This document shows, in pieces, positions 49,957 through 64,000 of a DNA stretch of 64,000 nucleotides. The number at the start of each line of letters is the position of its first letter. The stretch's first letter is position 1. The stretch is from Sulfurimonas sp. (GTDB lineage: Bacteria; Campylobacterota; Campylobacteria; Campylobacterales; Sulfurimonadaceae): assembly GCF_018698455.1 (NCBI RefSeq), contig NZ_JABIOQ010000072.1, positions 62,001-126,000 on the forward strand, given 5' to 3'. A model generated the notes under the pieces. That model ran no database searches and had not been told where the DNA came from. It saw only the letters and a list, made by a program, of their open reading frames with translations. A program made the position numbers and the translations under genes.

Positions 49957-52900
49957 CTATGGTTGAGATAAATGGTCCATTATCGCGGTAGCAGCTGTGT
50001 CGTTGAAATAATTTGTTACCTCAATTCTACCAGCTTTTCTAATTTCACCTACCCAAACTGTATTTGTTGCACTCGATGTATTTCCATCGGCAACACCAAA
50101 GTCATCCAAAATATATACTCTACTGTCAAATCTTTCGAGATCATTAGGTGTAATTACAAGCATTTCTGAGTTTCCGCCATTGACATTAATATCTGTTGTC
50201 ACACTCCATGTTCCTGCCATTTCGTTTACAACAAAAGCAGTTCCGGTTGTATAATAGTTGGATATATCCAACTCAACTAAATTTCCACTTCCATCAGTTA
50301 AAGTAGCATTTTTATCAAATACTAAAACTCTATTGATTTGACTTGACCAAGAAATACTGCTTCCATCAGAAACAAAAGATTCCAAAGAGTTGTGAGCAAT
50401 TCCAGATTGATCCGCTCTATAGTCGTATTCCACGCCATAAAAATCATATTCGTCTGTTAAGAACAATAGTGCCGCTTGATAAGCGATAGAACCAGAAGGC
50501 ATACTAATATTTAATTCGCTTGAAAGAGTAGCATTATCTTCAATTGTCCCTATCATTTTCATAGAAACTACTTGTGAATTGATGTCATAAGTAGTGCCGC
50601 CTTCTGAAGCATTTACTTCCCCTGTTGCTAGGGTGTCAGTAAAGTATATCACATCATTGTTTGTATTACCAGAGAACATTAGTTGACCTGATGTTGTGTT
50701 AAACTCCATAATTTCAGTTCTAGTCATATTTGTATCGTAATCTATTCCATAGAAGCTATGCAGACTAGTATCTCCAGGAATTGCTACAGTCGAAGTAGCA
50801 ATGAATGCATCAATATCCATAACAACATCGGATTTACTATACTCAGCTTCTGGAACCGATTGGTGAAGATAAGTTACATTAATAGATACGGTAAACTGAT
50901 CCACTGTGGTATTTGTTTCGTCATTTACATTAACATTTATCAGCGCTGTTCCAACACTAGCATTTGCATCTATAACAACTGTAAACTCTCCAGTAGTTCC
51001 GTTAAGGTCTGTTCCAGCTCCAATCGCTCCAGTAAAGCTTTCTATAATAAAAGTGAGACTAGAATTGGTATCGTCTTGAGGAATGATACCACTTAGAGCC
51101 TCTCCTGGAATCATGCTTAAATATATATCGTCATATGCTACTGTTGTTATGTTTGTATCAGTTGTAGTATTCGTGTCTGCAGCGATTGCAACCGAAAATG
51201 TATAACCGATAGAAGCACTCCCATTACCATCAAGATCACCACATGATAAGAATAAAGTGTCAATCATAGAGAGGCTATAATAACATTCTAAAGAAGTGTT
51301 TGTATCTGTAAATAAACCATTGGCGATATTTGCATCGTCATTTTTTGAAAAAGTTACAATTCCATCAGTATCTCCATCCACTCCCTGAAATGTTACAATA
51401 GATGTGTATGTACCATGTTCCATATCGTTTGTGGAATTTGTATCAAAGTAACCGTCTTGTGTTAAACGTAAAGTCATACCTGATGTACTTTCAACCCATT
51501 CGTTAGCTAGAGAGTGAGAAGTTGTTGTTCCTCCACTTAAATTTGCAGCTAATGCAGCATCTCTATCTTCTACAGTAGAATAAGAGACAATACTCTTAAG
51601 TAGTGTTCCATTATCTAATAAAAGCTTGAATACTGTACCGTTAAAGTTTGCAGTTCCATCATATACAGCAGTACTATTCCCATCTAGATCAAATAATTTA
51701 ATTCCATTTGTTAGAACTTCATAAGTTTCATTATTATCCCATGTACCATACTCATCGGTTCCACTATATGTACCTATGGTAGGACTAACTGTACCTGTGT
51801 AGGTCGTTGAAGTCCCATATGAAGAGCCATTAATTTCACTAGTTTCTATACTGTATATTGTTTTGTTTACAAAATAGCTTTCATAGTCAAAAGTAGAAGC
51901 AGTTGGGATAGAAGCGGAATAAGCTTCTATCGCTGCTTTAATGTCCGCTGTAGCTATATTATTAAAGTTAGCTCCGTTATTTTGATCTACTGTAAAGATA
52001 GTAGTTCCAAGTATGTGAGCACCTACATTGACAACACTATTTGCTACTGCTACTAGATTGCTATCACCATCAAAGTGGCTTTCGTATCCAGTAAGTGGAG
52101 TAAATTCAATAGCTAACTGAGTAGTGTTAGGTAGTGTGATTACACTCCAACTACCTACTGTCATTGGACTATATGATGGTGATGCAGTGTCGTATTTAAT
52201 CATATTACCACTTTGTCCAGCACTTAGTGTAGATATTGCTGCACCAGTAGAATCTATTACTTCTTTATCAAGTACCCAAGATGATGTATTATCATCAAGA
52301 TTTCTTTCAAAGTCTACACCTTCCCATTTACCAAATTCATTATGAATTCCTGCAGGTGAATTATTAGAACCCATGAACTCTTCTAGTGTGCTATATGGTG
52401 TATCTGTTACATTACATGTATTTGTTGTTTGGTTATAATCTGTACAATCAGCAGGAATCCACCAAAGTTTATAACTTTCTGGCTGGATAAAACCTAGTAT
52501 ATAAGCCTCTGCACCAGTACTAAATGTGATGTTCGCATCACCTGGAACTTTATTGTTGACTTCACTTATCACTGCTAATGCCTCAGTAGATGTTGATGTA
52601 AGGTCAATTTGTTGCATAATACTTACTTTCGTACCATTTGTTAACTCTAAATTTCCATCAACTAAAGAGTAAGTTTGAGTGCTAGTATCAACTACCCATG
52701 TTCCATTAGCTTGAAGTACTAAGTCATCTTCATCATTTGATGGAGCTGCTACAAAAACTTTTGATGTTACATCTAGGATCTCTTTTGTTTTAAGTAAACT
52801 TCCCGTTGAAAGAGTGTTTGTATAGATTTGAAGATCTCCATCTCTTTCGTCGAAGCCAGAGATTACCATACCATCAGTAAATGCAAGAGCAGTACCTGCC

Positions 52901-55674
52901 GCTTGATCAGCTGCTGTTTTAATTGCTATTATAGCTGTATGATTTGTTTCAATTGACAAAAAGAGTGGATCAACTGTCGTTCCTAAAACTTCAATCGCAT
53001 CAATTGCAGTTTGAGCATTGTTTAATGCAGTTGTCGCATCGTTAAGATTTTGAGTTGACACTGCTGTTACCATTGAAGAATTTGCATCATTAACAGTAGT
53101 TACATAACCCTCTAAAGTGGCAAAGTGATTACTAAGAGTTTGAGCTGTTGCATTCGCTTCATTTGCTAAAACTAATGCTTCACTACTATTATACTGACTT
53201 GCAATAGAGTACATCTGCGTTATAGTGTCTTGCACATCTGATATTTGTAAACTAGCTTCATCGTATGTAGTATTTGCTGAGATTGCAAACTCTCCTACAG
53301 TAGTAGCCATTGTTTGTATTTGTAAAGCTAATGCTTCTGCCGCAGATGTTTCTATTGCTGCTAATCGATCAATTTCAGTTTGCTTAAGACCTTCCGCAGT
53401 ACTTAAGGCTGTTGCAATACTAGTCTGAATAGTCTGAATTTCAGTCGCTCTTGTTGCTACTTCCTCAGCAGCTGTTTGTGCTTTGATAGCCTCTGCTTGA
53501 GATAAAACTTCCGTTGTGTTTGCATCTTGTGCTTTCACTTGCTCAGCTGCAATGATAGCAATCGAGTTATTTACGTCTGTTGCAAACCCTTGCGCTTCTG
53601 TTTGAGCAGTTAACACTCTTTGGTAAGCTGCTTGGACCGTAGTAGTATCTATAGTTAAAGTTGAATACTCTGTCGCTATTGCTATGGTAGCATTTAAATC
53701 TATCTCAGCTAAAGCAATTTTCATGCTGATAGCTGATAAGTCCGACGATACATTATTATCATTTGCCAAAGCTAATGCTGTGTCTATTAAGCCTATAACT
53801 CTTTGCTTTTCAGCCTCTGCCGCTTCAGCTGCTTGTGCATCCGCCTTGTCCGCTTGAATCGTAAGTACTCTTGCTCTTGTGTTATCAAGCGCTGTTTGCG
53901 CAATCGTTACTTGTGCTTTTGCTAAATTTCCATTAATTATTACAGTTTGTAAAGTAGCGTTAGCATCCGTTACATTTGCATCTGTTACATTTGATTCATT
54001 TGCTACAAGTGCTGCAAAGTCATATAAAGATTGTGCTGAAATGTTTGTATCATTAGCAAGTATGGTTATATCATTCAGTGCTGTATCAGCTTCAGTAAAA
54101 TAACCTGTAATATTGGTATCGCTACTATAGTTGCTGTCTAAAGATTGAATAAAAATAATAGAGTCTTTAGAGGCTTTTACTTGGGGGATATTCCCATAAG
54201 CTTTTGCTACTATAGCTTGTGCTTGAGTTTTCATAATATTTACAGCTGCGTTTCTCTCAGCGTTTGCTGCCGCTAGTTGAGCTGCTTCTAAATTTGCCTC
54301 TAATAAAGCAAGTTTTGCTGCTTCTTCTGCTGCTGCAATTCTAGCTTCTGCTTCCGCTTTTTCCGCTTTCGCTTTTTCTTGTGTTGCTAGAAGTTCCGCT
54401 GCTGCTGCTGCTGCTGCTGCATCTTTGGCTGCTTGGTCTGCTGCAAGTTGAGCTTCTAAAATAGCTGCTTGAGCTTGTGCTTCTGCTGCTTCTGCTTCTG
54501 CAGCTCTTTGTGCTTCTGCTTCTCTTAACTGTTCTGCTTCTGCTTCAAGAAGTGCATCGTAAGCTGCTTTTGCTTCTTCAGCTGATGCATTTGCTGCTGC
54601 AATCTCTGCTTCATGAAGTGCTTGTTGTGCATCTAATGCATTTTGAATTGCTTGTGCAATTGCAGCTTCTTTTTCTTCTTGTAACTGTTGAGCATCTACA
54701 ATTGACTGAAGTGCTGTAGCGTTTAAGTCATTTGCTGAACTTACTGAACTTGCAGTAGAAGCATTAATGTCTGATGCTATAGAAGTATTTACAAGAGTAA
54801 TACCTGAGTTTAGACTTGTTTCAGCCTCTGCAGGTGTTCCTGCTTCAATAGTTGCTTGAGTTTGTTCGGCCGCGTCGAATGCACTTTGAGCCGAATTTTT
54901 CGCATTGTTCTTTACTGAAACAAGGGCTACTGGATTACCCACATATAAATTATTTGCTACTGATTTTGTAACTGCGGTTATGTTTGCAACAGTTAAATTA
55001 ACATCACTAGTTGCACCAGAAAAACTTTTAGAAATTTCAGCAAATACCTCACCCATTACATTTTCAGTACTTTTATTTGAATCTGCACTTGCTACTGCAA
55101 CTGAAGCTGCATGAACAATAGTTTGTAAGTGTGCTTGAGAAGCCATAACAGCTCTGGCATTATTTGCTACAGTTGTATCTACATCTTTTGCACTCTCAAG
55201 TGGATTAAAAGTTGTTAGATTTACATCCGCGGGAATGCCTAGTGCAAATTTAATGTTGTCTTCTGCTTGTTTTGGGGACTTTCCACTTTTAACAAGTGAC
55301 TGAATCGCTGAAGTAAGTGGTGAAATAATTTTTGAACCGGATGGTGCTGTAAGTGAACCTGTAAAAGGAAGACCCGTACCAATATCAGTACCGCCTATTA
55401 CAAGAAGTGGACCCGTCTGTGTAGTTGCAGGAATCTCAAACTGACCTTGTGCATTTGTAGTGGCAGTTGGCTCCCCTGTATCACACTGACCGTTCTCATT
55501 CACATCAATACATACGGTAGTGCCCGAGAGTAAACCATCTATGGCTGTACCACTAAAGGCCTGAGAAACCGCTGCAGCAGCTCCATCACTTGAACCACCA
55601 CCGCTACAACCAGAAATAGCCATAACAGTAGCTAAACTTAGGGACAGTAATGAAGTCTTGAATTTGTTTTGCAT
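49957..55674 (-). CDS. Very large (1905 aa) lipoprotein: carboxypeptidase-regulatory-like N-terminus, Ala/Glu-rich coiled coil, beta-rich C-terminal half
   Basis: Lipobox MAISGCSGGGS; GTTVCIDVNENGQCDTGEPTATTNAQGQFEIP; long AEAQRAAEAEAAEAQAQAA segment; cadherin-like segment near VNVNDETNTTVDQFTVSINVTYL. Confidence 0.85.
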   Translation of the reverse strand: MQNKFKTSLLSLSLATVMAISGCSGGGSSDGAAAAVSQAFSGTAIDGLLSGTTVCIDVNENGQCDTGEPTATTNAQGQFEIPATTQTGPLLVIGGTDIGTGLPFTGSLTAPSGSKIISPLTSAIQSLVKSGKSPKQAEDNIKFALGIPADVNLTTFNPLESAKDVDTTVANNARAVMASQAHLQTIVHAASVAVASADSNKSTENVMGEVFAEISKSFSGATSDVNLTVANITAVTKSVANNLYVGNPVALVSVKNNAKNSAQSAFDAAEQTQATIEAGTPAEAETSLNSGITLVNTSIASDINASTASSVSSANDLNATALQSIVDAQQLQEEKEAAIAQAIQNALDAQQALHEAEIAAANASAEEAKAAYDALLEAEAEQLREAEAQRAAEAEAAEAQAQAAILEAQLAADQAAKDAAAAAAAAELLATQEKAKAEKAEAEARIAAAEEAAKLALLEANLEAAQLAAANAERNAAVNIMKTQAQAIVAKAYGNIPQVKASKDSIIFIQSLDSNYSSDTNITGYFTEADTALNDITILANDTNISAQSLYDFAALVANESNVTDANVTDANATLQTVIINGNLAKAQVTIAQTALDNTRARVLTIQADKADAQAAEAAEAEKQRVIGLIDTALALANDNNVSSDLSAISMKIALAEIDLNATIAIATEYSTLTIDTTTVQAAYQRVLTAQTEAQGFATDVNNSIAIIAAEQVKAQDANTTEVLSQAEAIKAQTAAEEVATRATEIQTIQTSIATALSTAEGLKQTEIDRLAAIETSAAEALALQIQTMATTVGEFAISANTTYDEASLQISDVQDTITQMYSIASQYNSSEALVLANEANATAQTLSNHFATLEGYVTTVNDANSSMVTAVSTQNLNDATTALNNAQTAIDAIEVLGTTVDPLFLSIETNHTAIIAIKTAADQAAGTALAFTDGMVISGFDERDGDLQIYTNTLSTGSLLKTKEILDVTSKVFVAAPSNDEDDLVLQANGTWVVDTSTQTYSLVDGNLELTNGTKVSIMQQIDLTSTSTEALAVISEVNNKVPGDANITFSTGAEAYILGFIQPESYKLWWIPADCTDYNQTTNTCNVTDTPYSTLEEFMGSNNSPAGIHNEFGKWEGVDFERNLDDNTSSWVLDKEVIDSTGAAISTLSAGQSGNMIKYDTASPSYSPMTVGSWSVITLPNTTQLAIEFTPLTGYESHFDGDSNLVAVANSVVNVGAHILGTTIFTVDQNNGANFNNIATADIKAAIEAYSASIPTASTFDYESYFVNKTIYSIETSEINGSSYGTSTTYTGTVSPTIGTYSGTDEYGTWDNNETYEVLTNGIKLFDLDGNSTAVYDGTANFNGTVFKLLLDNGTLLKSIVSYSTVEDRDAALAANLSGGTTTSHSLANEWVESTSGMTLRLTQDGYFDTNSTNDMEHGTYTSIVTFQGVDGDTDGIVTFSKNDDANIANGLFTDTNTSLECYYSLSMIDTLFLSCGDLDGNGSASIGYTFSVAIAADTNTTTDTNITTVAYDDIYLSMIPGEALSGIIPQDDTNSSLTFIIESFTGAIGAGTDLNGTTGEFTVVIDANASVGTALINVNVNDETNTTVDQFTVSINVTYLHQSVPEAEYSKSDVVMDIDAFIATSTVAIPGDTSLHSFYGIDYDTNMTRTEIMEFNTTSGQLMFSGNTNNDVIYFTDTLATGEVNASEGGTTYDINSQVVSMKMIGTIEDNATLSSELNISMPSGSIAYQAALLFLTDEYDFYGVEYDYRADQSGIAHNSLESFVSDGSSISWSSQINRVLVFDKNATLTDGSGNLVELDISNYYTTGTAFVVNEMAGTWSVTTDINVNGGNSEMLVITPNDLERFDSRVYILDDFGVADGNTSSATNTVWVGEIRKAGRIEVTNYFNDTAATAIMDHLSQP
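54398..54420. repeat. GCT trinucleotide microsatellite (7 units + GC), coding for poly-Ala on minus strand
   Basis: gctgctgctgctgctgctgctgc; encodes AAAAAAAA in the lipoprotein coiled coil. Confidence 0.95.
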
Positions 55675-56356: not shown

Positions 56357-56908
56357 ATGGATATGAAGTTGATATATATAATAGTTGCATTAAAAAGTGA
56401 AGCACAAGCATTTGTAGATAAATATAAACTTAAGAAGTCAAGACTTAGTGGGTTTCTAGTTTTTTCAAATGCTACAATGAAACTTATAGTAAGTGGTGTA
56501 GGAGTTGGTTTTGCGAGAGATGCAACTCAAACATTTATAAATCACTATGATATTACAGATGATGATATTTATCTCAATGTTGGTATTTGTGGGGGCGATA
56601 AAAACTATGAAATTGGTACACTTGTAGAAGTTGGAAGTGTTACTTATGAGGGCATAAAGTATACTCTAAAAGAAAATAAAAAACAGATACATACCCTAGA
56701 TAAGGAAATGACTCAAGAGGGGTTCGAGCTTGTAGATATGGAAGCTTATGGTTTTTATGATGCAGTCGTGCATAACCCAGCTATAAGAAACGCATATATT
56801 TTTAAAGTTGTGAGTGATCATTTCGAGCCAAAACTAATTACTAAAGAGAAAACAAAAGCGCTAATTTTTGATAAAATAGATGCAATAAATAAAATTATAA
56901 AGATTTAA
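56357..56908 (+). CDS. Nucleoside phosphorylase/nucleosidase family protein
   Basis: VSGVGVGFARDAT, LNVGICGG, VDMEAYGFYDA motifs of PNP_UDP family. Confidence 0.8.
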   Translation: MDMKLIYIIVALKSEAQAFVDKYKLKKSRLSGFLVFSNATMKLIVSGVGVGFARDATQTFINHYDITDDDIYLNVGICGGDKNYEIGTLVEVGSVTYEGIKYTLKENKKQIHTLDKEMTQEGFELVDMEAYGFYDAVVHNPAIRNAYIFKVVSDHFEPKLITKEKTKALIFDKIDAINKIIKI

Positions 56909-56918
56909 AGGAAGAGAT

Positions 56919-58577
56919 ATGAAACATTTTTTACTATTTTTTACATTATTACTCGTGCTTCACGCCAAAGAAATTAAAGATGACACTCTTAAAAAAATGA
57001 TAGGACATATGCTTCTTGTAGGTTTTAATGAGAGTAGTATTACTAAAGACTCTCAAATTGTTAAAGATATAAATGAGTATGAGCTAGGGGGAGTCATTCT
57101 TTTTGATAAGTTTTATAAAAATAAAAATAAAAATAAAAATATCTCTTCACCCGAGCAACTTGCAAAACTTACAAGTGACTTAAAAAAGTTTTCAAATCAA
57201 GCACTGTTTGTAAGTGTCGATCAAGAGGGTGGAAAAGTGGCACGTCTTAAACCTAAGTATGGATTTGAAGAGATTGAGTCTGCATTAGAGGTTTCCCAGA
57301 TGAATGAGTATGCAATTGTAGACATGTATGACAAGCAGTCAACTATGCTTGAGAGTGCAGGTATAACTATGAATTTTGCTCCAGTTGTGGACTTGGCTGT
57401 AAATCCAAAAAACAAAGTTATAGTTGGACTTGAACGCTCCTTTGGAGAAAAACCAGAAGAGGTGAGTAAGTTCGCAAAAGTAGTGATACAAAGTCAAAAG
57501 AAACATAACATTATCTCTGTTTTAAAGCACTTTCCAGGGCACGGTTCTTCTTTGGAAGATTCGCATAAGGGTTTTGTAGATGTGAGTGAGACTTGGAGTC
57601 CTGAGGAACTAGAGCCATATGAGATACTGATAAACGAAAAACAAGTTGATGTGATTATGACAGCACATGTTTTTAACGAATATATTGACGATATGTACCC
57701 AGCAACCCTCTCCTATAGTTTTAACACAGAATTGCTTCGCCAAGAGATGGGTTTTGAAGGTGTTATAATCAGTGATGATTTACAGATGGGAGCTATTTCA
57801 AAGCATTTTACATTAGACAAAAGAGTTTCTTTGGCTATAAACGCAGGAGTGGATATTTTACTTTTTGGAAATCAGCTTGAAAATGTAAGTGTAAAAAAAC
57901 TTGTTAACAGCATCTTGACTCAGGTGAAATCAGGTGTGATACCTATAAAAAGAATCAAAGAGTCAAATGCTAGAATAGATAAACTTCATACTAGATACAT
58001 GATAAAACAAAAACCAATAGTCTTTACAGAAAAACGCAAAAAACTTACACGAGAATACATCAAGAGTCATTATGGTTTGAGTGTAAAAAACATTGAAATT
58101 ATTCCAAAAAGCATAGTCCTTCATTGGACTGCCGTTATGGACTTTGAAAAAAGTTTTGAGCGTTTAAACGCAGAGCTCCTTTTCAGTGATAGAGCAGATA
58201 TAGCTAAGGCTTCAGCACTCAATGTTTCAGCTCATTTTTTAGTTAAACGCGACGGAACCATCTACCAACTTATGCCAGATAACTGGATGGCTCGACATGT
58301 CATTGGGCTTAACTACTCCAGCATAGGAATAGAGAATGTTGGAGGAGAAGGAAACGAAAAGGAAGATTTGACTCAGGCTCAACTTCGCGCGAACATATGG
58401 CTTGTAAAGTACTTAAAGACAAAGTACCCAAGCATAAAAAATGTCATAGGGCATCATGAGTATAGAGATTTTGAAAATAGTTCCTTATGGCTAGAAAAAG
58501 ATGCAGGCTATAGAACACAAAAAGCAGACCCTGGTGTAAAGTTTATGAATGATGTGAGAAGTGCTGTAGATGAATAG
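56919..58577 (+). CDS. Exported GH3 beta-N-acetylhexosaminidase (NagZ-like) fused to N-acetylmuramoyl-L-alanine amidase (Amidase_2)
   Basis: Signal peptide MKHFLLFFTLLLVLHAKE; NagZ motifs KHFPGHGSSLEDSHKG and ISDDLQMGAIS; amidase motifs VLHWTA, SAHFLVKRDGTIYQL, GHHEYRD, KADPG. Confidence 0.92.
   Translation: MKHFLLFFTLLLVLHAKEIKDDTLKKMIGHMLLVGFNESSITKDSQIVKDINEYELGGVILFDKFYKNKNKNKNISSPEQLAKLTSDLKKFSNQALFVSVDQEGGKVARLKPKYGFEEIESALEVSQMNEYAIVDMYDKQSTMLESAGITMNFAPVVDLAVNPKNKVIVGLERSFGEKPEEVSKFAKVVIQSQKKHNIISVLKHFPGHGSSLEDSHKGFVDVSETWSPEELEPYEILINEKQVDVIMTAHVFNEYIDDMYPATLSYSFNTELLRQEMGFEGVIISDDLQMGAISKHFTLDKRVSLAINAGVDILLFGNQLENVSVKKLVNSILTQVKSGVIPIKRIKESNARIDKLHTRYMIKQKPIVFTEKRKKLTREYIKSHYGLSVKNIEIIPKSIVLHWTAVMDFEKSFERLNAELLFSDRADIAKASALNVSAHFLVKRDGTIYQLMPDNWMARHVIGLNYSSIGIENVGGEGNEKEDLTQAQLRANIWLVKYLKTKYPSIKNVIGHHEYRDFENSSLWLEKDAGYRTQKADPGVKFMNDVRSAVDE
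57117..57140. repeat. Hexanucleotide repeat (AAAAAT)x4 inside nagZ-amidase gene
   Basis: Encodes KNKNKNKN. Confidence 0.95.
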
Positions 58578-60054
58578 TAGTTTTACTTCACTTGATTGGG
58601 TGATATTTATAGCTTACTTTACTATTTTAGGTGTCAGTTCTTACCTTTTTTCTCGTGCTAAAATCTCTTCTAGTAGAGAGTACTTCACCGCTTCAAACAC
58701 AATGCCAATACTTGCAGTGGCTATCTCTATCTTAGCTACTTCTCAATCTGCTGCAACTTTTTTGGGAGTTCCTGAGTTCTCATATTCTAACAACTTCACA
58801 CTCATAGGCTTTTACTTTTCTTCACTTCTTGGAGTTATCTTTGTAGCAAAGTTCTTAGTGCCAAAGTTTTACGAGATGAAAGCGATTACGGTTTATGAGT
58901 TACTAGAAAAACGTTATGGTGCATCTGCAAAAAAACAAGCTGGCGTTATGTTTCTTGTTGGTCGGGTTATGGCAAGTGGGGCAAGACTCTACATTGCAGC
59001 ACTCGCTATTAGTATGATTTTATTTTTAGATATTGGCTTTTCTCATATGTTGATTTCTATTTGTATTTTAGTTCTAGGGGCATTAGCTTACACTTACTTT
59101 GGTGGTGTGAAGTCTGTGATTCTAAGTGATATTATTCAGGCTATTACTTATGTAAGTGCAGGTTTAGTAGTAGTATTTTATCTTTACATTTCTTTAGATG
59201 GCATTGATATTTTAAATGTGTTAAACGCGAACGATAAACTTGTTTTTATTGACACTTCTTTAGATGGTAAGTTTAGCATTATTGGTCTTTTAAGTGGTTG
59301 GTTACTGTTAAACATAGCGGCCTTTGGACTTGACCAAGATATGACACAAAGAGTGCTTACTTGCAAGAGTAAAGATGAAGCCTCTCGTTCTCTTATAGTG
59401 TCCATCTTACTTACCATTCCAATAGTTTTACTCTTTCTTATCATAGGGGCTCTTCTGTTTGTGCATTATGAAAGTGCAGAGATAGCTCAAAGTTTTGGAG
59501 ATGAGAAGATAACCATCTTTATGTACTATATACTAAACGAAATGCCCGAGGGTGTTCGTGGGTTTGTAACGGTGGGTGCGATTGCAGCTGCTCTTTCAAG
59601 TACAAACTCTGTTTTAGGTGCTATGGCTTCGGTTGCTATAGAAGATTTATATAGACCTTTGAAGCTTAAACGCGATGCAAAAACAGATGAGACTCATTTC
59701 ATAAAAGCTTCAAGAAACGCAGTCCTCTTTTTTGCAGTAGTATTATTCGCAATGGCAATACTGAGTTACTTTTGGCAAAGATATGCAGAACTATCGCTGA
59801 TAGGTTTTGCCCTAGGTGTAATGGCATTTGCATATACTGGACTACTTGGCGTTTTCTTTTCAGCCATCTTTACTTCGAGGGGAAGTGTAAAAACTGTACC
59901 CTATGCACTAATCGGTGGTTTTGTAACAGTCTTAGCCTTACAGCCTTACACATTTGGCATAAGCATAGGTTTTGCTTGGCAGATAACTTTAGGGACTTTA
60001 GTCGCGTTTATGATAATGCAGACAGGAAAAGTAAAATCAGTAGTATTTGACTAA
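58570..60054 (+). CDS. Sodium:solute symporter (SSS family)
   Basis: 14-TM style; LATSQSAATFLGVPEFSY, AALSSTNSVLGAMASVAIEDLYRPL. Confidence 0.9.
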   Translation: MNSSFTSLDWVIFIAYFTILGVSSYLFSRAKISSSREYFTASNTMPILAVAISILATSQSAATFLGVPEFSYSNNFTLIGFYFSSLLGVIFVAKFLVPKFYEMKAITVYELLEKRYGASAKKQAGVMFLVGRVMASGARLYIAALAISMILFLDIGFSHMLISICILVLGALAYTYFGGVKSVILSDIIQAITYVSAGLVVVFYLYISLDGIDILNVLNANDKLVFIDTSLDGKFSIIGLLSGWLLLNIAAFGLDQDMTQRVLTCKSKDEASRSLIVSILLTIPIVLLFLIIGALLFVHYESAEIAQSFGDEKITIFMYYILNEMPEGVRGFVTVGAIAAALSSTNSVLGAMASVAIEDLYRPLKLKRDAKTDETHFIKASRNAVLFFAVVLFAMAILSYFWQRYAELSLIGFALGVMAFAYTGLLGVFFSAIFTSRGSVKTVPYALIGGFVTVLALQPYTFGISIGFAWQITLGTLVAFMIMQTGKVKSVVFD

Positions 60055-60097
60055 AAGATATAAATAATATATAATATTGATATACAAAGGAAAAAAG

Positions 60098-60370
60098 ATG
60101 CATACATTATCACAACTGGAAAAACAACAGGTTGGTCTGCGTTTACCAAAATACCTTCTTGATGAGATAGATACTTTTACTAAAGAGTATTCGCTTAACC
60201 GTACTGACATCATAGTTGAAGCCTTGAAATCTTATGTAGCAGAGCAAAAAGCAAAGATTTTTTATGATGGGTTTGAGAGCTCAGTTGAAGAATTAAACAC
60301 AGTTTTAACTACTAAAGAGAAAAAGCTACAGTCACTTGATGAGTTAATAGATGAACTTGACAATAACTAG
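60098..60370 (+). CDS. Ribbon-helix-helix antitoxin-like protein
   Basis: VGLRLPKYLLDEIDTFTKEYSLNRTDIIVEALKSYV; SD AAAGGA before ATG 60098. Confidence 0.8.
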   Translation: MHTLSQLEKQQVGLRLPKYLLDEIDTFTKEYSLNRTDIIVEALKSYVAEQKAKIFYDGFESSVEELNTVLTTKEKKLQSLDELIDELDNN

Positions 60371-60683
60371 TTTAGAGAGTTTTTCTAAAGAAATTAAAAA
60401 GCTTTTTAAAAAGTATAAAAATATATCACAAGATTTAAAATCCTTACAAAATGAACTTCTTACAAATCCAAAAGCTGGGATAGAACTAGGTAGCAACTGT
60501 TATAAGATACGACTAGCAAACTCCTCAATTCCAACAGAAAAAAGTGGTGGCTTAAGGGTTATATATTACTATTTAGATGAAAAGAGTAATATTTATCTTA
60601 TGAGCATTTATTCTAAAACAGATTTAGAAAATATTAGCGATAGTAAACTTGTAGATATTCTGACATCAAGTGGATTAAAATGA
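60351..60683 (+). CDS. RelE-type toxin-like protein
   Basis: GIELGSNCYKIRLANSSIPTEKSGGLRVIYYYLDEKSNIYLMSIYSKTD; overlaps antitoxin end by 20 nt. Confidence 0.78.
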   Translation: MNLTITSLESFSKEIKKLFKKYKNISQDLKSLQNELLTNPKAGIELGSNCYKIRLANSSIPTEKSGGLRVIYYYLDEKSNIYLMSIYSKTDLENISDSKLVDILTSSGLK

Positions 60684-61762
60684 ATAATTTATACATAGGT
60701 GTAATGTCTGGAACAAGTTTAGATGGTGTAGATGTTACTCTTTGTGAGATAAATGAGAACTCTTGTAAACTTCTTCACTCTCATGAGTTTGTATTTCCTA
60801 AAGACTTGAAAAATGAGGTTTTAAACGCTATATCTACTAGTGTTACACTTCAAACTCTTGGAACATTAGATCATAAACTAGGACAGCTCTTTGCAGACTC
60901 TATCAATGAGTTTTTAAAGACATATAAAATTAATGCTAAAGATATAAATGCCATAGGACTTCACGGTCAAACGCTATGGCACGAGCCCCAGAGTGAGACT
61001 CCTTTTTCTATGCAGTTAGGCGATGCAAACATAGTAGCAAGTAATACTCAGATAAAAACGGTTGCTGATTTTAGAAGAATGGACATGGCTAATGGCGGGC
61101 AGGGCGCTCCTTTTGCTCCTGCGTTTCATCAGTTTTTATTTTCTAACTTAATGGGAAATGTGGCTGTAGTAAACATTGGTGGTATGGCGAATATAACTCT
61201 TTTAGGAAAAAACCTTAGAGGCTGGGATATAGGTTGTGGCAATGTTCTACTAGATATGTGGATAACGCAAACGCGAGATAAAGCTTATGATAAAGATGGT
61301 GACTTTGCAAGAAGCGGCAGGATCAACAAAGAGTTGCTAAACGCGATGCTTCAAGATGCCTACTTCTTAAAAACACCACCAAAAAGTACGGGAAGAGAGT
61401 ATTTTAATGATACTTGGGTGGCAAATTTTCTTCCTCTTTTCGTAAGTATAAAAGATGAAGACATTCAAGCAACACTTTTAGAACTTACAGCGAGAACCAT
61501 AGCGGACTCAATTAAGAACAGTTCTATTGACACTCTCATTTTATGTGGGGGTGGTGCTAAAAACAGTTACTTGGTTGAGCGACTGGGAAAGCTTTGTGAT
61601 ACTAATGTTAAATGCAGTGATGACTATGGAGTAAGTAGTGATGCTCTTGAATCTATGGCATTTGCTTGGCTTGCATACAAAAGAATACAAGGCGAAGTAG
61701 TAGACCTTAAGTCTGTTACAGGAGCCTCTGAAAACTCACAACTCGGAGCGATATATGGATAA
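60680..61762 (+). CDS. anmK: Anhydro-N-acetylmuramic acid kinase
   Basis: LYIGVMSGTSLDGVDVTL, IGLHGQTLWHEP, NIGGMANIT, LILCGGGAKNSYL. Confidence 0.97.
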   Translation: MNNLYIGVMSGTSLDGVDVTLCEINENSCKLLHSHEFVFPKDLKNEVLNAISTSVTLQTLGTLDHKLGQLFADSINEFLKTYKINAKDINAIGLHGQTLWHEPQSETPFSMQLGDANIVASNTQIKTVADFRRMDMANGGQGAPFAPAFHQFLFSNLMGNVAVVNIGGMANITLLGKNLRGWDIGCGNVLLDMWITQTRDKAYDKDGDFARSGRINKELLNAMLQDAYFLKTPPKSTGREYFNDTWVANFLPLFVSIKDEDIQATLLELTARTIADSIKNSSIDTLILCGGGAKNSYLVERLGKLCDTNVKCSDDYGVSSDALESMAFAWLAYKRIQGEVVDLKSVTGASENSQLGAIYG

Positions 61763-62696
61763 GATGAAAGCTTTTATAGAAGAGACTCCTTATAAAGAGT
61801 GGACTCTTAGCATAGTGAGTGCAGATGCCTCTTTTAGAAAGTACTACCGATTACAAGAGGGGAATAAAAGTGTTGTCGTTATGGATAGCTCATTAGAGTT
61901 AGATTCTCTCGCACCTTTTATAGATGTAACTTCAAGACTTATAAACGCAGGGGTGAAGGCACCAAAGATTTTAGGAAAAAATGAAAAAGATGGATACTTG
62001 ATACTTGAAGATTTTGGTGATGTACAACTTCTTGATGCACTTAATGACTCAAACTTCAAAACTCTCTACTCAAACGCGATGGATGAAATTCTTATGATGC
62101 AAAAAGCAGACAGCTCCAAACTTCCTCTGTATGATAAAGAATTTTTACATTTTGAGATGGATTTGATGAAGGAGTGGTACTTAGGTAAAAACTTGAGCTT
62201 AACACTTAGTGACACTCAAAAGGAGTTAATTAAACATGCTCTTGAGAGAATTTCTGATGTAGTACTAGAACAGCCTCAAGATGTATTTGTGCATAGGGAT
62301 TTTCACTCTCGTAACATTATGCTTACTCCAAGTAAAGAGGTAGGGGTTATAGACTATCAGGATGCTATGAGTGGGGCTATAACTTATGACTTGGTATCTT
62401 TACTCAAAGATTGTTACATAGAGTTTAAACACGAAGACATAGAAGAGTTAGCACTTGCGTTTAGAGATAAGTTAGGTCTACAAACAGAAGATAAAGAGTT
62501 TTTAAAATGGTTTGATTTTATGGGAATGCAAAGACATATAAAAGTGCTTGGTATCTTCTCGCGTTTATCTATTCGTGATGGTAAAGAGGGTTACTTAAAA
62601 GATATTCCTCTTGTTTTGAAGTATACCCTTGAAACAGCTTCAAGATATGAAGAAACAAAAGAGTTTGCAAAGTTTTTAGAGAGTGTGACTTTATGA
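61755..62696 (+). CDS. amgK: Aminoglycoside-phosphotransferase-fold kinase, probable MurNAc/GlcNAc-1-kinase AmgK
   Basis: VFVHRDFHSRNIML, GVIDYQDAMSG; adjacent to anmK and murU. Confidence 0.88.
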   Translation: MDKMKAFIEETPYKEWTLSIVSADASFRKYYRLQEGNKSVVVMDSSLELDSLAPFIDVTSRLINAGVKAPKILGKNEKDGYLILEDFGDVQLLDALNDSNFKTLYSNAMDEILMMQKADSSKLPLYDKEFLHFEMDLMKEWYLGKNLSLTLSDTQKELIKHALERISDVVLEQPQDVFVHRDFHSRNIMLTPSKEVGVIDYQDAMSGAITYDLVSLLKDCYIEFKHEDIEELALAFRDKLGLQTEDKEFLKWFDFMGMQRHIKVLGIFSRLSIRDGKEGYLKDIPLVLKYTLETASRYEETKEFAKFLESVTL

Positions 62697-63349
62697 AAGC
62701 GATGATACTAGCAGCGGGAAAGGGTGAGAGAATGAGACCTCTGACAGACACTCTTCCTAAGCCGCTTTTGGAAGTAAGAGGAAAACCTCTTATCGTATGG
62801 CATCTAGAAAAGCTTAAAAGAAATGGTTTTAAAGAAGTAGTCATTAACATCGCTCACTTAGGTTATAAAATACCTGAGTATCTCGGGTGTGGCTCAAAGT
62901 ATGGGTTAGAGATTAGCTACTCAGATGAACAAGAGTGTGGTGGATTAGAATCTGCTGGAGGCATTAAAAAAGCACTTAGTCTTTTAGGAGATGAACCTTT
63001 TATGGTAGTAAATGGTGATGTGTTTTGTGAGTATGAGTTTGATGCATCATTAGAATTAGCAGGTAAAAAAGCACACCTTGTTTTAGTTCCAAATCCTCCT
63101 CATAATTTAAAGGGAGATTTTGGTTTAAAAGAGTCTTGCGTTTTAAATAAAGATGATGTTATGTATACATTCTCTGGCATAGGTTATTATGCTCCTTCTT
63201 TCTTCGATGAGATAGGTGAGGGTAAGCAAGCATTAGCACCATTTCTAAGAGAAGCTATAGATAAAAAAGAGGTGAGTGGTGAAGTGTTTACAAAAGTATG
63301 GCACGATATAGGAACACCTCAAAGATTAGAAGAGATAAATAATGATTAA
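62693..63349 (+). CDS. murU: Nucleotidyltransferase, probable MurNAc-1-P uridylyltransferase MurU
   Basis: MKAMILAAGKGERMRPLTDTLPKPLLEVRGKPLIVWHLEKL; 4-nt overlap with amgK. Confidence 0.88.
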   Translation: MKAMILAAGKGERMRPLTDTLPKPLLEVRGKPLIVWHLEKLKRNGFKEVVINIAHLGYKIPEYLGCGSKYGLEISYSDEQECGGLESAGGIKKALSLLGDEPFMVVNGDVFCEYEFDASLELAGKKAHLVLVPNPPHNLKGDFGLKESCVLNKDDVMYTFSGIGYYAPSFFDEIGEGKQALAPFLREAIDKKEVSGEVFTKVWHDIGTPQRLEEINND

Positions 63350-64000
63350 AATAATTTTAATAACAGTAAGCCTTACGACACTTCTTATGGCGAAGTACAC
63401 AAACTGTACATTTCAGAACAAAAACTATAGTGATATTTGTGAAAAAGCAGTAGAAGGTGGCGTTACTTACAAGTATGCAAACCAGTTTTTACTTTCATAC
63501 TTTAAAACAAAAAAATATGATGAGGTGAGTTGGAAATACCTACAACCCAGAGAAATAAAAAAACATAGAGCAAGCGAGAAAAAAGCGAACAATGCTCTTG
63601 TGAAATATGTTCCACAAATAGTGAAAAACCTTAAAGAGTATAAAGAAGTATATGATTATGCCGAGAAAAAGTATGGGGTAAACCGTGAAATTATCGCGGC
63701 AATCCTGCTTAAAGAGACAAGGTTAGGAAAGATAAAACCAAAACATGATGCATTTGGGGTTTTTAACACAATAGTGACAAGAGTGAAGACAGAGACTTCA
63801 AGAGAAAAATGGCTGATGAAAATGGGAAAGACAAATATGACAGCCATAATAAAATACTGTTATAAAAAAGGGGTGGTGCCTGAACAATGTAATATTCCAA
63901 GTTCCTATGCCGGGGCTGTTGGAATCCCTCAGTTTATGCCAAATAGTTTCATTCATGCAAAATCATACAAAAGTGAGATCTCTGACCTTACAAAAATGGA
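63342..64000 (+). CDS. Lytic murein transglycosylase, MltB-like (partial, runs off window)
   Basis: MIKIILITVSLTTLLMAKYTNC...; YGVNREIIAAILLKETRLG, SSYAGAVGIPQFMPNSF. Confidence 0.88.
   Translation, partial: MIKIILITVSLTTLLMAKYTNCTFQNKNYSDICEKAVEGGVTYKYANQFLLSYFKTKKYDEVSWKYLQPREIKKHRASEKKANNALVKYVPQIVKNLKEYKEVYDYAEKKYGVNREIIAAILLKETRLGKIKPKHDAFGVFNTIVTRVKTETSREKWLMKMGKTNMTAIIKYCYKKGVVPEQCNIPSSYAGAVGIPQFMPNSFIHAKSYKSEISDLTKM

Follow-up and report, generated by a model that had tools for sequence, protein, structure and literature searches.

In the textbook route of peptidoglycan recycling, wall fragments are imported whole. We describe here a compact group of genes at positions 56919-64000 of a 64,000-nucleotide stretch (the window) of contig NZ_JABIOQ010000072.1 from the sulfur-oxidising marine bacterium Sulfurimonas, which combines a predicted exported NagZ-like/amidase fusion, a symporter of the sodium:solute symporter (SSS) family and enzymes leading to uridine diphosphate-N-acetylmuramic acid (UDP-MurNAc), and we compare it with the closest described systems. 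The anabolic route of Pseudomonas relies on AmpG, cytoplasmic NagZ and AmpD, AnmK, MupP, AmgK and MurU (PMC5371407); our locus resembles it in the AnmK, AmgK-like and MurU end leading to UDP-MurNAc, and in the lack of MurQ, but no AmpG was found here and MupP was not identified. The MurNAc rescue operon of Bacillus subtilis, murQ-murR-murP-amiE-nagZ-ybbC, unites an exported NagZ, an exported amidase and sugar import in one gene cluster (PMC5061867). Export of both hydrolases is a feature present here too, with predicted leaders in fused and stand-alone forms, and B. subtilis NagZ is indeed among the closest solved relatives of the GH3 half of the fusion. By contrast, B. subtilis uses import by the phosphotransferase system (PTS) and breakdown by MurQ, where SSS import and UDP-MurNAc salvage are proposed here; our amidase domain is a zinc Amidase_2; and no PTS transporter MurP is encoded in the operon, beyond which no PTS search was made. 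Non-PTS uptake of MurNAc is known from the MurT-MurK-MurQ system of Tannerella forsythia; PMC5790795 assigns MurT to the sodium symporter superfamily in its introduction and to the major facilitators in its discussion. MurT is moreover paired with a MurNAc 6-kinase and the MurQ etherase, in an organism which also has AmpG (PMC5388701). Agrobacterium, another Gram-negative, recycles without AmpG, as here, through YejBEF-YepA, but unlike here whole muropeptides enter via this ATP-binding cassette (ABC) transporter and meet cytoplasmic NagZ and AmpD (PMC9790009).

Against this background, the Sulfurimonas operon is probably an AmpG-independent anabolic module of peptidoglycan recycling, with stripping in the periplasm, import of anhydroMurNAc by the SSS symporter and formation of UDP-MurNAc. 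Lytic transglycosylases would release N-acetylglucosamine (GlcNAc)-anhydroMurNAc-peptides in the periplasm, where the exported fusion, or the separate exported NagZ and amidase of relatives, would strip off both GlcNAc and the stem peptide. The symporter would then bring free anhydroMurNAc over the inner membrane with sodium, AnmK would open it to MurNAc-6-phosphate, a HAD phosphatase would take off the phosphate, AmgK would yield MurNAc-1-phosphate and MurU would convert the latter to UDP-MurNAc. Since NagZ and the amidase are predicted to be exported, the sugar, and not the muropeptide, would have to cross the inner membrane. With somewhat less assurance, we also consider it likely that in Sulfurimonas and Sulfurovum recycling has moved outside the inner membrane, that an exported NagZ-amidase pair dismantles muropeptides fully, and that a dedicated sodium symporter, the first to be assigned to anhydroMurNAc, feeds UDP-MurNAc synthesis without AmpG. 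The preliminary description of this DNA had proposed a topology different from that of the AmpG route. This stands as regards the missing AmpG and the export of the enzymes, but B. subtilis and Tannerella offer precedents for the general topology, and many members of the phylum export NagZ, including some in which the pathway is missing. In the open-licence literature, we found no paper treating both Sulfurimonas and peptidoglycan recycling, nor any on an exported NagZ-amidase with an SSS symporter; the combination in one operon of an AmpG-less Gram-negative, with an SSS symporter tied to AnmK, was not found described in such papers.

To follow the pathway across the phylum, each part was searched in the same 249 Campylobacterota genomes. 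AnmK occurs in 16 of them, all from two families, and these same 16 genomes possess MurU over its cut-off, a full-length AmgK and a close SSS orthologue (at least 59% identity, the next match dropping sharply to 30%); the sole noise consists of two fragmentary AmgK matches with E near 1e-3 (one in G174, an extra one in G219). All 16 also encode the amidase, fused in seven and free in nine (in G234, for instance, at C22:36202). AmpG (TIGR00901) gave no match in our genome or in the 15 other pathway genomes, while the E. coli and Caulobacter controls were positive. This co-occurrence persists where linkage is lost: in G234, G186, G126 and G200, the parts are spread over several contigs or stand separately on a single one. 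Two sister genomes from this genus, G015 and G027, are devoid of every part, GH3 included. Because of these joint absences and unlinked cases, a shared function is the simplest account. The preliminary description had suggested a search for such a co-occurrence in the absence of ampG, and had attached the symporter to the pathway: the former was found, whether the amidase is fused or free, and the latter is much strengthened by the identical phyletic distribution of the symporter with AnmK, AmgK and MurU.

The fusion gene (56919-58577, plus strand, like all genes of the operon) encodes 552 amino acids and has six full-length relatives at 58-65% identity. According to the Pfam limits, its GH3 domain (PF00933, 6e-62) spans 56988-57983 and its Amidase_2 domain (PF01510, 4.8e-21) 58104-58535. 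The Asp-His dyad D214/H216 and the nucleophile D286 are invariant in the seven fusions and align with B. subtilis NagZ, whose nucleophile D318 is the residue mutated in structures 4gyj/4gyk. The zinc ligands H402, H512 and D537 are likewise invariant in the seven fusions and in 13/13 aligned amidases, fused or free, and AmpD is among the solved relatives of this half; the roles given to all these residues are those already established for NagZ and AmpD proteins. The structure model of the fusion reached a mean predicted local distance difference test (pLDDT) score of only 70 and served solely as a check of the GH3 half, which it confirmed by comparison with solved NagZ; its top 50 structural matches included no amidase. 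As judged from their sequences, the fusion and the pathway enzymes look intact.

Export was evaluated by eye and by hydropathy in a 12-residue window. The fusion begins with a predicted signal peptide, MKHFLLFFTLLLVLHA (56919-56966), which is hydrophobic, ends in an A-x-A-like motif (LHA) and would be cut before KE; A16 and the hydrophobic leader are conserved in 7/7 aligned fusions. Leader hydropathy ranged from 2.07 to 3.17 in 27 complete fusions, with a median of 2.77, versus medians of 0.6-1.1 in AnmK, AmgK and MurU. Wherever the amidase does not follow GH3, it starts with a signal peptide or a lipobox of its own; stand-alone GH3 proteins also have leaders, and some of the hydrolases are predicted lipoproteins. 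Because two independent architectures, fused and split, agree in this respect, both activities are probably located outside the cytoplasm. The signal peptide claimed for the fusion in the earlier reading is matched by a clear leader, and the only GH3/amidase locus of our genome is this one, with its leader, so that no second, cytoplasmic NagZ was found. Export of all the hydrolases, some as lipoproteins, together with the mixed-community habitat suggested by record titles, would also suit a module that mainly scavenges the wall debris of other bacteria instead of recycling its own wall. We consider this unlikely as the main role, since the Sulfurimonas operon includes a lytic transglycosylase and leads to UDP-MurNAc, not to carbon catabolism (no MurQ over cut-off); scavenging and recycling are in any case compatible. 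As separate observations, a GH3 or amidase match exists in 100/249 genomes of the phylum; other families also have exported NagZ-like GH3 proteins, at about 47-56% identity, unaccompanied by AnmK, AmgK or MurU (L013, L014, L017-L019, L021, L026-L030); and a close amidase (49-62% identity) is found in G074, G145 and G060, which have no SSS, AnmK, AmgK or MurU.

The gene that overlaps the end of the fusion gene (58570-60054) encodes the SSS symporter (PF00474, SSF, 3.4e-26, 92.5 bits for a cut-off of 22.8), the proposed anhydroMurNAc importer. It belongs to the SSS family (TC 2.A.21), the top Foldseek matches of its model all being SSS/SLC5-type transporters. Among solved proteins it is closest to the sialic acid symporter SiaT (5nv9; sequence 1.4e-34, about 22% identity), with which its predicted fold (pLDDT 80) superimposes at a template modelling (TM) score of 0.82. 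Like anhydroMurNAc, sialic acid is an acidic N-acetylated sugar. In SiaT, Ser60 and Thr63 of TM1 hold the substrate carboxylate (PMC5931594), and both are invariant, at identical numbers, in the SSS orthologues. By contrast, Gln82 of SiaT is not conserved in the SSS alignment, and the operon context differs. The resemblance to SiaT, which comes from sequence comparison and a predicted model, is suggestive only as a pointer to anhydroMurNAc. A stronger argument for this cargo lies in the association with AnmK and with the amidase, which yields anhydroMurNAc; on this ground we infer that the symporter is an anhydroMurNAc importer.

The other product of NagZ has to be weighed as a cargo. In a gene-order survey of 80 named loci, all from Campylobacterota, the gene directly before the symporter is the fusion in 31, GH3 alone in 25 and the amidase alone in 17 (Sulfurovum type). 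The 25 loci with GH3 alone would fit a symporter that imports GlcNAc, anhydroMurNAc or muropeptides then using another carrier, and the AmgK family name includes GlcNAc as a substrate. Sulfurovum-type loci, however, have the amidase and not GH3 as the direct neighbour of the symporter, SSS is missing from the numerous genomes that have GH3 without AnmK, and NagA, present in Sulfurovum-type genomes, is absent in Sulfurimonas. GlcNAc import by this symporter consequently appears quite unlikely, and anhydroMurNAc is retained as the proposed cargo.

Once imported, anhydroMurNAc would meet three enzymes encoded in succession. The anhydro-N-acetylmuramic acid kinase gene anmK (60680-61762) is full length, with strong matches to PF03702 (1e-129, 433 bits, cut-off 24) and NF007139 (455 bits, cut-off 367). 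It is followed by an amgK-like sugar kinase gene, for a MurNAc/GlcNAc anomeric kinase (61755-62696; PF01636, APH), whose top NCBIfam match is the AmgK family NF045759 (1.2e-73), and by murU, for the MurNAc-1-phosphate uridylyltransferase (62693-63349; NF045761, 297 bits, cut-off 250, 8e-89). MurQ (TIGR00274) was not found over cut-off in 18 genomes, the weak matches spanning only short SIS-type stretches, and the profile search for Mpl gave nothing over cut-off; the usual catabolic and tripeptide-reuse routes thus look absent, and without Mpl the stem peptides are probably not re-ligated. In Pseudomonas, MupP is required between AnmK and AmgK (PMC5371407). No MupP gene lies in the operon, and a search with TIGR01449 in 40 genomes, completed by a tree of 60 HAD proteins, allowed no assignment of any one Gph-like HAD protein as MupP, the paralogue clades mostly following genome relationships. 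One HAD orthogroup is shared by 16/16 pathway genomes and lacking from G015, G027 and G133, yet it is present in other negatives. The pathway had been presented as contained in a single operon; AnmK, AmgK-like and MurU are indeed there, but MupP is not identifiable. As an observation apart, a Gph-like HAD phosphatase gene lies beside that of an Opp-type peptide-binding protein in many genomes (G000:C15:13179-17309; G037:C23; G009:C1 near 1830000).

Several points weigh against the proposed import and salvage of anhydroMurNAc. Computation shows the gene content, intact catalytic residues, export signals, the order of the genes and an all-or-none co-occurrence in genomes where AmpG, MurQ and Mpl were not found; we infer every catalytic activity, what the symporter carries, transcription as one unit and the removal of the phosphate. 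The 16 pathway genomes come from two families and hence do not represent 16 independent events, and GH3 was not found in one of them (G219). The GH3 domain scores 178 bits against the cut-off of 207 of the NagZ equivalog PRK05337, and the sugar kinase 248 bits against the 550 of the AmgK equivalog NF045759; each is the top match, over the full length for the kinase, and because these scores lie below the strict cut-offs we name the proteins NagZ-like and AmgK-like. In the symporter, the carboxylate-binding Arg135 of SiaT is replaced by alanine (A135) in the alignment; R132 and R139, one turn from this position, are invariant. Gph-like HAD proteins occur in all genomes searched, and none tracks the pathway alone. 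Lastly, Opp-type peptide-binding proteins (SBP_bac_5) are encoded in 15/16 pathway genomes and could import muropeptides.

This last point, along with the replacement of AmpG by an ABC transporter in Agrobacterium (PMC9790009), speaks for an Opp/Yej-type transporter that imports muropeptides whole or partly trimmed, the SSS symporter carrying something else. Such import is nonetheless improbable: the only amidase/GH3 locus found in our genome is exported, so that these enzymes would not be available in the cytoplasm to act on imported muropeptides; one genome (G139) has the whole module without any SBP_bac_5 match; and the pathway-free sister genomes G015 and G027 do have SBP_bac_5. An ABC route for peptides or muropeptides that is not tied to the module is possible. 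Finally, chance clustering of a generic symporter with peptidoglycan genes of no common function could invoke the very varied solutes of SSS proteins and the unrelated genes, TA (toxin-antitoxin) pairs included, which separate SSS from anmK in some genomes, but it is strongly disfavoured by a co-occurrence of 16/16 versus 0/233 genomes that survives loss of linkage.

If the proposed periplasmic stripping and anhydroMurNAc import are true, these bacteria offer a third Gram-negative solution to the recovery of wall material, beside AmpG and YejBEF-YepA, and a candidate anhydroMurNAc transporter is named. Fosfomycin tolerance would then depend partly on recycling, stem peptides would be released, and no build-up of cytoplasmic muropeptide signals of the AmpC-inducing kind would be expected. 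Within the phylum, Helicobacter pylori does not readily use exogenous MurNAc (PMC7012605), and the restriction of AnmK to two families of the sampled genomes fits the same pattern.

The genes of the locus are tightly packed, in line with the preliminary description, and all those that it named were found on the plus strand at the coordinates given, with families assigned by Pfam and NCBIfam. Seven plus-strand genes and a TA pair lie within 56919-64000, mostly with overlaps of 4-8 bp; the intergenic distances are -8 (fusion/SSS), -4, -8, -4 and -8, and the sole larger gaps flank the TA pair. This clustering is not due to chance, since relatives in Sulfurimonas and Sulfurovum show the same arrangement. 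In the survey of named loci, anmK lies at most 300 bp after the symporter gene in 42/65, and amgK adjoins anmK or murU in nearly all relatives. Judged by the SSS gene, the named organisms nearest to ours are Sulfurimonas, at 87% identity and below, which makes it a Sulfurimonas-type campylobacterote. A tree of 81 SSS proteins implies about seven changes between fused and split forms, one of which is probably a contig-end artefact, and an alignment of amidases places GH3 in the fusion directly before what is elsewhere the mature amidase start. According to the tree, GH3 and amidase have fused or come apart on several occasions, as would be expected for partners in one process. They are split in about half of the relatives, and GH3 alone precedes the symporter in many Sulfurimonas loci; the fusion was therefore rejected as an essential feature, and a design built around it, as first described, does not hold for the many relatives with separate exported proteins.

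The last gene, for an MltB-like (SLT_2) lytic transglycosylase with the leader MIKIILITVSLTTLLMA (63342-64000, incomplete in the window; PF13406 7.3e-22, TIGR02282 3.6e-14), reaches 326 amino acids when completed (L002:343-1323), about 320 bases beyond the window end, and occupies an equivalent place in most Sulfurimonas loci. The TA pair (60077-60683) comprises an antitoxin-like open reading frame (ORF) with no match in Pfam or NCBIfam and a RelE-like ORF (60351-60683) with a weak RelE match below cut-off. It had been listed within the operon pathway, but it is found at this gap in three loci only (our own, L106 and L127) and was rejected as a pathway member in favour of a passenger. Other TA-like pairs occupy the gap between SSS and anmK in L157 and L162. 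Its genes are unrelated and vary by locus (TA pairs, methyltransferases, signalling proteins), and they were likewise rejected as candidates for a missing step of the pathway. Small modules seem to have inserted repeatedly at this gap.

Our genome totals 2.23 Mb in 76 contigs, the window being part of contig C22. Upstream of the fusion, at a distance of 10 bp, a gene of 183 amino acids (56357-56908) shows a weak likeness to MTA/SAH (methylthioadenosine/S-adenosylhomocysteine) nucleosidase and is apparently shortened; it is retained at this place in many Sulfurimonas loci and possibly opens the operon. Just upstream, the minus strand encodes a 1905-amino-acid protein (49957-55674) whose leader resembles a lipobox and whose sequence contains repeats rich in Ala/Glu/Gln and many segments rich in Asn/Thr, and a large related ORF is also located upstream in G037 (L076:1-6156).

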